DNA from: Rhizobium sp. P32RR-XVIII
GTDB lineage: Bacteria > Pseudomonadota > Alphaproteobacteria > Rhizobiales > Rhizobiaceae
Direction of reading: 5' to 3'
NCBI RefSeq assembly: GCF_012641395.1
Contig: NZ_JABAIH010000001.1
Coordinates: 248,001 to 312,000 of the forward strand
Length of the DNA stretch: 64,000 nucleotides
The first letter of the stretch is position 1. Each line of letters opens with the position of its first letter. Positions 44,850 to 47,554 of this stretch are shown piece by piece. The notes below the pieces were generated by a model. It was not told the origin of the DNA. It made no database searches and saw nothing but the letters and a program-made list of their open reading frames with translations. The translations under genes were made by a program, and so were the position numbers.

Positions 44850-45128
44850 ATGGCCAATACAACTTCGGCGAAAAAAGCGACTCGTAAGATCGCCCGCCGT
44901 ACCGACGTCAACAAGGCTCGTCGCTCGCGCGTTCGTACGTTCGTTCGCCAGGTCGAAGAGGCACTCGCAGCTGGTGACGCTGCAAAGGCAAAGGAAGCCT
45001 TCCTCGCAGCTCAGCCGGAACTGGCGCGCGCTGCAGGCAAGGGCGTCCTTCACGCCAACACAGCATCCCGCAAGGTTTCGCGCCTTGCCGCTCGTGTGAA
45101 GGCCCTGTCGGCAGCCCCGACCGCGTAA
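44850..45128 (+). CDS. rpsT: 30S ribosomal protein S20
   Basis: A small basic protein (92 residues) beginning [20 protein letters not shown], with the helical S20 repeat of Lys/Arg/Ala. It binds 16S rRNA early in 30S assembly. GAGAGAGG precedes the start. It has its own promoter and is followed by a strong terminator, so it is monocistronic. Confidence 0.95.
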
Positions 45129-45158: not shown

Positions 45159-45185
45159 AGCCCGGTAACCAAGCCGGGCTTTTTC
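45159..45185 (+). terminator. Intrinsic terminator of rpsT
   Basis: AGCCCGG (45159-45165) pairs with CCGGGCT (45174-45180) around an 8-nt loop, followed by TTTTC. Confidence 0.85.
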
Positions 45186-45994
45186 GATTCTGTTTATGTT
45201 CTGCGGATTGGGGAATTTGACAGCTGTTTCATGTCGTTTAGGTGACACGAAAAATCGTTGAAAATCAAATGCTTGCGAGAGGATGTTTGCAGATTGGACG
45301 ACTCTCGCGCCTTCTGGCCGACTCAGTTGTGAGTCAAGCGGATTTTATTTTTTTTTCTTTCAATGCGTGTCCAAAATGTCGATTTCGGGAATCTCCTTGA
45401 TTCTCCTGCGATTCTTTTTTGCCTTTGCGGCGGCGCCCTAAAACAGCCGCCGGAGTCAATGGCCGCTTCTTAATTTTGCGTAAAATTCGCCATTGATCTC
45501 TGCAACCGATCCTGCCTAAATGCGTTCCAGCAGAGGGCGCGGACATCACCTGCAAAGGCTCGGTCTAAACTGCCATGTCGGCAGGCCGATGTGTTGCACC
45601 ATCTGTTACGGAGCAGTGTATCTCTCCGTTTTTTCAAGCACTTGAGTTATTTGCGCCGCGGCCGTGGCTGGTCGCGGAACGGAGAAGCTTTGTGCGTTCT
45701 ACGGCCACACGTTTAAGGTGAGCCGGAAGGGCTGGGGGAAGTAAATTTGCGTTGGGGGTTGGCTGACCGGAAACGAGGTCTGGCAGTCAACCTGGCACCG
45801 AGAACATGACGGAGGCCGCATAAAGGCGGTTTCCGCCACGGTTTTCTGCGCCGGTCTCGCTAGGCGGGACAGCGTTTGTGTGAACCGGCAGCCGGTGGCT
45901 CATGAAGGAGTCGCTCGCATGCTAGAACGGGGAAAATTGATCGGGCGGCCGTTCTAGGTGATGACCGCCCGGTAGAAGAAATTTGGAAGGCGGC
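45186..45994 (+). promoter_or_regulatory. Long non-coding region upstream of dnaA with a GANTC cluster
   Basis: No credible gene lies in these 0.8 kb. Eight GANTC sites (starting at 45186, 45300, 45319, 45330, 45389, 45399, 45410, 45453) fall within 272 bp, and a ninth is at 45908. GANTC is the target of the cell-cycle methyltransferase CcrM. A GACTCA/TGAGTC inverted repeat (45319-45334) followed by a T-rich tract and a GGCGGC/GCCGCC hairpin (45429-45451) are also present. I find no good TTATCCACA-type DnaA box, so an origin is not supported; a long regulated dnaA leader is more likely. Confidence 0.6.
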
Positions 45995-47554
45995 ATGATG
46001 CAAATGAATTCTCTGACGACGACCGGTGCTCTTGAAAATGGGGACAAGACACCGCAAGCGTTCGGCTCAATTCGCCCGGAAACGGCAGGGGAAAAGGGGG
46101 ATATGAAGCATGGCGTACTTTTCGATCGTGTCGGTGCACGTCTGAAGGCTCAGGTCGGTCCAGACGTTTATGCAAGCTGGTTCGCACGTCTGAAGCTGCA
46201 CTCGGTTTCAAAGAGCGTCGTGCGACTCTCGGTTCCCACCACATTTCTCAAGTCGTGGATCAACAATCGTTATCTTGATCTCATCACCAGCCTCTTCCAG
46301 CAGGAAGACGCAGAGATTCTGAAGGTTGAGATCCTCGTCCGCACGGCAACACGTGCCGGCTTGAAGCCGATAGATGAGGTGGCTCCGCAGGAGCCGGCCA
46401 CGCAGGCCGCGCCAATGCGTCGTCCTGCCGCTGCTCAGCCGGCGGGTCACGCCGTTCAGCAGGCGGTTTCGGCCGCTGCTGCGGCTCGTCCCGCGACGGC
46501 AGGCCAGCCGTTGTTCGGCTCGCCGCTTGACTCGCGCTTTACCTTCGACACCTTTGTTGAAGGCAGCTCGAACCGTGTTGCGCTTGCTGCCGCAAAGACG
46601 ATTGCGGAAGCAGGGCAGGGTGCCGTTCGCTTCAATCCGCTCTTCGTTCATTCGAACGTTGGCCTCGGCAAGTCTCACCTGCTGCAGGCGATCGCCAATG
46701 CGGCGGTTCAAAATCCGCGGGCTCTGCGAGTCGTCTATCTGACGGCCGAGTATTTCATGTGGCGTTTTGCAACGGCGATCCGCGACAACGATGCGCTGAC
46801 GCTGAAGGACTCACTTCGCAACATCGATCTTCTGATCATCGACGACATGCAGTTCCTGCAGGGCAAGATGATCCAGCATGAGTTCTGCCACCTGCTGAAC
46901 ATGTTGCTGGACAGCGCCAAGCAAGTGGTCGTCGCTGCCGACCGCGCGCCCTGGGAGCTGGAATCGCTTGATCCTCGGGTGCGTTCGCGCCTGCAGGGCG
47001 GTGTTGCGATCGAGCTCGATGCCCCCGACTACGAGATGCGTCTCGAAATCCTGAAGCGCCGCCTGGCGAATGCCCGGCAGGAAGATCCGTCGCTCGAAAT
47101 TCCGGCGGAGTTGTTGTCGCACGTTGCTCGCAGCGTAACCGCAAGCGGCCGCGAACTGGAAGGGGCCTTCAATCAGCTAGTCTTCCGCCGTTCTTTCGAG
47201 CCGAATCTGTCGATCGAACGGGTGGACGAGTTGCTGGCTCATCTCGTCGGTTCCGGCGAGCCCCGCCGCGTGCGCATCGAAGACATCCAGCGCATCGTCG
47301 CCCGCCACTACAATGTCTCGCGACAGGAACTGGTTTCGAACCGCCGCACGCGCGTCATCGTCAAGCCGCGCCAGATTGCGATGTATCTCTCCAAGACGTT
47401 AACGCCGCGCTCCTTCCCGGAGATCGGCCGCCGCTTCGGCGGACGCGACCATACGACGGTTCTGCACGCCGTTCGCAAGATCGAGGAGCTGATTTCGGAA
47501 GACACCAAGCTCTCGCATGAGATCGAGCTGCTGAAGCGCCTGATCAACGAATAG
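45995..47554 (+). CDS. dnaA: Chromosomal replication initiator protein DnaA
   Basis: About 519 residues. Domain I is [20 protein letters not shown] onward; domain II is a variable Ala/Pro-rich linker; domain III (AAA+) has Walker [15 protein letters not shown] near residue 223 and Walker [13 protein letters not shown]; domain IV has the DnaA-box signature [13 protein letters not shown] near residue 485. I choose the ATG at 45995 because GGAAGG is just upstream; 45998 and 46004 are close alternatives and a TTG at 45983 is less likely. It initiates replication and binds ATP. A terminator follows at 47583. Confidence 0.95.

Follow-up and report, generated by a model that had tools for sequence, protein, structure and literature searches.

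The question raised by this locus is what the GANTC sites crowded between rpsT and dnaA do in a Rhizobium genome of 7.19 Mb, whose closest DnaA matches, among them that of Rhizobium mongolense, are 95-96% identical. The window, that is the whole stretch of 64,000 nucleotides analyzed, carries eight such sites within 272 bp (45186-45457), and all eight counted in the initial annotation were found again. The number expected by chance, which had been put at about one, holds for the local composition and is too generous when set against the genome-wide depletion of GANTC. First-order Markov simulation of 272 bp (n = 5000) gave a mean of 1.7 sites, with at least eight in a fraction of 0.0002 of the simulations. 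The 64-kb window contains 93 GANTC against a shuffle mean of 356, and because of this almost fourfold depletion the whole-window shuffle was dropped as the main yardstick; the genomic rate, together with 1.25 Mb of actual sequence, took its place. At that rate (1.546 per kb; 1936 in 1.252 Mb), 0.41 sites are expected in 272 bp where eight are observed (Poisson P 1.5e-8, for a stretch chosen after the fact). In the 1.252 Mb sample, which makes up about 17% of the genome, mostly in 20-kb pieces with stretches spanning piece borders unseen, the rpsT-dnaA cluster ranks first for GANTC among 272-bp stretches. When 16 palindromic words of the form XYNY'X' were compared within the 272 bp, GANTC was the sole outlier.

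The cluster had been described as lying upstream of dnaA. The side is correct; the nearest site is about 540 bp before the likely start codon at 45995, and the array is positioned directly upstream of the predicted dnaA promoter, not adjoining dnaA itself (Table 1). The rpsT terminator hairpin was predicted by a pattern scan which found three hairpins against 2.7 expected in shuffles. The predicted promoter was assigned with what we take to be the alphaproteobacterial consensus, and an E. coli-type promoter scan reported no promoter at 45492-45521. The ATG at 45995 is preceded by a conserved GGAAGG (45985-45990) and lies 866 bp after rpsT, compared with 837 bp for the annotated dnaA start of S. 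meliloti. The DnaA core starts at ATG 46103, and the conserved ribosome-binding site and ATG at 45995 imply a 36-residue N-terminal extension (45995-46102). One Rfam match, to the Rhizobiales sRNA Atu_C3, falls at 45526-45700 within the inferred dnaA leader (22.8 bits, threshold 100). For S. meliloti, PMC4414408 reports a putative 5'-UTR of dnaA that is long, with probes extending to -372. The S. meliloti record CP090106.1 (3.7 Mb), which is titled plasmid pSymB, carries both rpsT and dnaA; it is chromosome-like and probably mislabelled. Its dnaA locus (L177) shows that S. meliloti shares the core GANTC sites described below.

Table 1. Features of the rpsT-dnaA region, in window coordinates, with the basis of each assignment or the number of distinct Rhizobiaceae spacers in which a site is intact
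Feature	Position	Strand	Basis or conservation
rpsT (30S ribosomal protein S20), upstream neighbour	44850..45128	+	ORF; S. meliloti annotation at corresponding place
Predicted rpsT terminator hairpin	45159..45180	+	Pattern scan; columns conserved
GANTC site 1 (GATTC), in T-rich tail of rpsT hairpin	45186..45190		Intact in 77/100 spacers
GANTC site 2 (GACTC)	45300..45304		Intact in 40/100 spacers
GANTC site 3 (GACTC)	45320..45324		1/100 spacers; private to this genome
Element A, GAGTCAAG	45331..45338	+	Includes GANTC site 4
GANTC site 4, within element A	45331-45335		Intact in 98/100 spacers
A/T tract after element A	45341..45359	+	Sequence; alignment; profile
GANTC site 5 (GAATC)	45389..45393		Intact in 81/100 spacers
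Element B, dyad AA-N5-TTGANTC-N8-TT centred on GANTC site 6	45390..45413	+	Alignment profile
GANTC site 6, centre of element B	45399-45403		Intact in 100/100 spacers
GANTC site 7 (CGATTCT context)	45410..45414		Intact in 99/100 spacers
GANTC site 8 (GAGTCAA)	45453..45459	+	Intact in 100/100 spacers
Predicted dnaA promoter: ATTGAT 45492-45497, 18-bp spacer, CTAAAT 45516-45521	45492..45521	+	Conserved columns
Inferred dnaA 5' leader, about 467 nt, first base inferred	45528..45994	+	From predicted promoter
dnaA, likely start ATG 45995	45995..47554	+	ORF; conserved start region; S. meliloti annotation

Conservation was examined in 110 loci (the genome itself, 80 from the named collection and 29 others), chosen as the best matches to the window's DnaA. 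An rpsT-dnaA spacer was obtained from 107, three (L058, L085 and L096) having no rpsT within reach, and removal of seven duplicates left 100 distinct spacers. These also cover Agrobacterium, Ensifer, Shinella, Neorhizobium, Ciceribacter, Mycoplana and others; they are not independent, and many are from Rhizobium. Four of the eight sites (45331, 45399, 45410 and 45453, the core sites) are kept in 98-100 of the 100 spacers. The expectation of a conserved cluster fails for 45320 (one spacer) and 45300 (40 spacers), and 45186 and 45389 are intact in 77 and 81. The spacing of the core sites is equally constrained: 45331 and 45399 are 68 bp apart in 96 spacers and 67-69 bp in all, 45399 and 45410 are 11 bp apart in all 100, and 45410 and 45453 are 42-44 bp apart in all 100. 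Mean pairwise identity reaches 99.4% in the 16 core GANTC columns, against 42% at 45359-45386 and an average of 67% in the remaining 289 columns of the region; 31 of these 289 are also at or above 98%, so that further short conserved blocks exist. Among 16 palindromic 5-mers, GANTC alone is kept at four positions in at least 95 of the 100 spacers, while CCNGG is kept at one (the terminator) and GCNGC at one (45990, the ribosome-binding site). Past the rpsT terminator and ahead of the predicted dnaA promoter there is thus a group of GANTC sites conserved in both presence and spacing. Within Rhizobiaceae each core site also has a fixed central base, which indicates that selection sees more than GANTC; the conserved unit includes this base, the flanks, the A/T tract and the spacing.

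Beyond the family, a DNA similarity search found the array in only five of 297 genomes of the order, and synteny was used in its place, by extracting the sequence ahead of dnaA (89 order-level, 41 family-level and 28 other-order loci). From the order search, 88 genomes not belonging to the window's genus contributed loci; three of the 89 order-level loci, L178-L180, are from the GTDB family of the window itself. Genomes whose dnaA is at the start of a contig and lower-ranked genomes were left out, so that the sample is biased towards DnaA proteins nearer to that of the window. GTCAAR followed by an A/T tract was present in 97/100 Rhizobiaceae spacers and in 32/41 family, 23/89 order and 1/28 other-order loci. 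Where it was present, a GANTC followed 55-95 bp later in 97/97, 25/32, 11/23 and 0/1, respectively, and the GANTC at A itself was intact in 95/97, 15/32, 11/23 and 0/1. The core site at 45331 has therefore lost its GANTC in 17 of the 32 family-level loci that retain the rest of element A. GTCAAG is the older core of A, its preceding GA being often lost outside the Rhizobium clade, and since A often occurs there without GANTC, part of the element works without it. The GANTC set is built on this older two-part element, A plus B.

A GTCAAR with a GANTC 66-84 bp downstream was found in 66 of 145 loci, which include 15 hand-picked representatives of the 100 Rhizobiaceae spacers; the other 79 have no A-B pair by this rule. 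The A-B distances are 66-71 bp in 33, 73-75 bp in four and 79-83 bp in 29 of the 66; some of the 66 are probably chance pairs. The two distance groups are one helical turn apart. Within the window's GTDB family the shorter distance prevails (67-71 bp in 32/46, 79-83 bp in 12/46), and in other families 16 of 20 loci have 80-81 bp. Alignment of B on its GANTC revealed AA at -9/-8, TT at -2/-1, A at +6 to +8 and TT at +13/+14, a rough dyad. With GANTC required, the central base of B across the order is T in 23, A in 21, G in 13 and C in nine of the 66 loci. When GANTC was not required, the best flank match proved to be a GANTC in 97/97 Rhizobiaceae spacers (controls 1/291), 14/32 family loci (controls 1/96) and 10/20 order loci (controls 0/60). 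Seven of the 11 higher-scoring family misses resemble a GANTC one base out of register, based on visual reading of the 5-mers. The pattern AAN5TTGANTCN8TT has a single match in the 1.252 Mb sample, namely element B itself, and five other GANTC in that sample score 7/9 of the B flank positions, one of them being element A. Two of these B-like matches were inspected: one precedes a GntR-type-looking ORF and one is beside an apparent tRNA gene, and no cell-cycle link was seen at either from gene names assigned by reading.

Outside the order, none of the 27 loci scored (of 28; L209 was too short) had an excess of GANTC upstream of dnaA over shuffles, the lowest P being 0.275, and no A-B pair was found in the other-order loci sampled. 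Of 61 further order-level loci, one had P <0.05 over shuffles, in a severe test whose null ignores the genomic depletion. As other orders have no excess and order-level loci are mostly without enrichment, the element characterizes some members of the order and is most pronounced in the Rhizobium clade. Two family members with genomes of 1.4 and 1.2 Mb (L329 and L334) retain CcrM and have two and one GANTC, respectively, in the dnaA spacer; the reduced genome L334 also retains GTCAAG and the A/T tract. Two promoter assignments were considered for the conserved motifs. A leftward promoter that would use the minus-strand TTGAC of A for its -35 and the A/T tract for its upstream element was rejected because the left flank of the 66 aligned loci has no conserved -10, and for the TTGANTC of B as a -35 nothing is conserved at -10 distance in a profile that ends 25 bp past B.

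Both CcrM and GcrA are encoded in this genome. CcrM was present in 121 of 121 family genomes searched, so no CcrM-less genome was found among them. Second in density in the 1.252 Mb sample is a GANTC cluster with six sites inside 241 bp (448838-449078 of the window's contig), located 144-384 bp before the gcrA start codon, with several sites 9-10 bp apart. It resembles the published gcrA promoter of A. tumefaciens (PMC11514494). In contrast to the dnaA array, no TTGANTC was seen in it. Like the dnaA array, the A. tumefaciens promoter has dense GANTC (six in 250 bp) before a gene for a cell-cycle regulator, and it is described as methylation-sensitive; it differs in serving another gene and in that methylation lowers its activity even in E. 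coli (PMC11514494).

The best explanation, to which we give a probability of about 0.55, is that the 272 bp form a control region ahead of the dnaA promoter which would sense methylation by CcrM. It is supported by the position of the two densest GANTC clusters of the sample before dnaA and gcrA, by four sites kept at constrained spacing amid diverged DNA, by the GANTC at B with its free central base across the order, by A-B distances one helical turn apart, and by the presence of CcrM and GcrA genes. A dimeric DNA-binding protein would occupy B and, on the same helical face, A, while the A/T tract would permit a bend or loop between them. Its grip would be set by whether the GANTC adenines are methylated on both strands or on one. 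With CcrM acting late in the cell cycle, the array would be fully methylated before the fork and hemimethylated from its passage to the end of S phase; acting in concert, several sites would provide a sharp switch, and dnaA transcription would be altered once per cycle. In A. tumefaciens CcrM is regulated over the cell cycle (PMC11514494), and in S. meliloti it is limited to late S phase (PMC5172544). As for the sign of the response, we lean somewhat towards more dnaA transcription in the fully methylated state, by analogy with dnaA of Caulobacter, which is listed among genes responsive to GANTC methylation (PMC3973325, PMC3708114); the opposite sign, methylation lowering activity, is that of A. 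tumefaciens gcrA (PMC11514494).

GcrA would be the first candidate reader, above all at 45410. The extended GcrA motif YGAKTCK from Caulobacter, quoted in PMC8725594, fits this site in 91/100 spacers, 45399 in 11, and 45331, 45389 and 45453 in none. The GcrA proteins of S. meliloti and Brucella are reported to bind methylated GANTC better than unmethylated (PMC3667746). In the GcrA footprint at ctrAP1, GANTC is in the -10/-35 region (PMC3667746); unlike this GcrA-activated promoter, the predicted dnaA promoter (45492-45521) contains no GANTC, and the array sites are about 75-340 bp (the core sites about 75-200 bp) upstream of the inferred start. Since the sites are thus further upstream than the known GcrA mode predicts, another reader is equally likely.

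Some observations go against a methylation-sensing region. The fixed central base within Rhizobiaceae is more than methylation alone requires, the GANTC at A is intact in fewer than half of the family and order loci that have A, and A is absent from most order loci. In a second reading, possible but less likely, a dimeric regulator of dnaA binds TTGA-N-TCAA-like sites together with GTCAAG and the A/T tract; GANTC would simply be part of its motif, and methylation would be irrelevant. The fixed central base and flanks within Rhizobiaceae, the outer AA and TT of the dyad and the persistence of GTCAAG at A in the 17 family loci that lost its GANTC all suit such a factor. Against it, 45410 (CGATTCT) and 45453 (GAGTCAA), whose flanks are unlike, both retain GANTC; the centre of B accepts all four bases; and the top ranking of this cluster together with that of gcrA is left unpredicted.

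A third reading, which we regard as very unlikely, places DnaA itself at the centre, the region being an origin-like, titration or autoregulation site with methylation in a side role. DnaA-box-like 9-mers were defined as having at least 7/9 matches to TTATCCACA. On the plus strand, in keeping with such a site, 15 of the 66 A-B loci, in sister genera, have one 116-118 bp before B, and the A/T tract is present; in two further loci the distance is 121-122 bp. Other plus-strand 9-mers of this kind occur 106-109 bp (five) and 126-129 bp (four) upstream or elsewhere (five), and on the minus strand five are scattered among the 66 loci. In the 17 box loci the A-B distance is 68-70 bp in ten and 79-82 bp in seven, so that A seems free to shift by a helical turn between two landmarks that stay in place, an after-the-fact observation. 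The stricter TTWTCCACA was found in 12/40 family and 5/89 order loci; in the sister-genera loci L306, L307, L310, L313 and L315-L320 it is 39-42 or 50 bp upstream of GTCAAG. What tells against a DnaA-centred site is that TTWTCCACA is absent from all 107 spacers of the window's clade, including the window's own, that GC skew along 972 kb of the window's contig has no sign change at dnaA, and that hemE, a gene adjacent to oriC in both S. meliloti and Caulobacter, sits on another contig (C77) than dnaA. Given the unchanged sign of the skew and the missing TTWTCCACA, a replication origin at dnaA was rejected for this genome. Compared with sister genera, the window's clade is without the DnaA box and has more GANTC sites, which was again noticed after the fact.

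It is highly improbable that the conserved unit is a transcribed, structured RNA with a stem pairing GAGTCAA with TTGATTC: in the window the two 7-mers can pair with one G-U, as read from the sequence, but across the 66 loci a central G at one element accompanies T (23), A (21), G (13) or C (9) at the other, without covariation, and the single Rfam match is far below threshold and downstream of the array, on which two grounds this candidate was rejected. Chance is barely credible for the cluster as a whole: it would be aided by an A/T-rich spacer (46% G+C inside a more G+C-rich region), by the roughly twofold GANTC content of intergenic over coding DNA in Ensifer (PMC8725594) and by the private site 45320 as evidence that sites do arise in this way, but it is opposed by the simulations at the stretch's own composition and excluded for the four core sites by their position-exact conservation, and it stands for 45320 and perhaps 45300.

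A methylation-sensing region at dnaA would have several known counterparts. The Caulobacter crescentus dnaA promoter has CcrM sites (Collier et al. 2007, via PMC3973325 and PMC3708114). In both organisms GANTC is upstream of dnaA; in Caulobacter the change from full to hemimethylation alters transcription, whereas here such a response is our inference. Relative to Caulobacter, known to us by description, there are here up to eight sites, four of them fixed in place, and a two-part element of which no A-B pair turned up in the other-order loci sampled. The repABC/ori2 modules of Alphaproteobacteria are likewise GANTC-rich and are tied to replication initiation and CcrM (PMC11514494); they serve RepC-dependent replicons, whereas the present array is upstream of the chromosomal dnaA.

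In E. coli, Dam and SeqA control the dnaA promoter and oriC. The array shares with that system a cluster of adenine-methylation sites at dnaA which would be hemimethylated on replication, some of them 10-11 bp apart; the methyltransferase and the motif are different, and to our knowledge there is no SeqA homologue in this group. SeqA control of origins is also mentioned in PMC11514494. A wider proposal, which we consider rather unlikely, is that Hyphomicrobiales possess an ancient, helically phased dnaA module as a convergent counterpart of the Dam/SeqA timer, which would consist of a DnaA box (in some genera), GTCAAG with an A/T tract, and a dyad that has a methylation site at its centre, read by a methylation-sensitive dimer.

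No description of a GANTC array upstream of dnaA in this group was found in the open-access literature, which was mostly judged by titles and abstract openings. In the portions of the A. tumefaciens CcrM paper considered here (PMC11514494), dnaA is not named as a target. Direct targets were defined there by the 200 bp before each ORF; a 2010 survey (PMC2877005) scored GANTC between -400 bp and 100 bp into each gene without concluding on methylation control, and PMC8725594 used 125 bp upstream of transcripts. The 200-bp and 400-bp definitions would miss the core sites because these are located behind a long leader.

CcrM is reported to be essential in Rhizobiales; Gonzalez and Collier argue that this is probably not due to ftsZ and mipZ there and might instead be due to DNA replication (PMC3708114). 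This idea becomes directly testable through the conserved GANTC array found at the gene for the replication initiator. The array probably lets the cell sense that the stretch has recently been copied and adjust dnaA, and a module resembling the Dam/SeqA timer, if it is real, would give a direct reason for the essentiality of CcrM in Rhizobiales.
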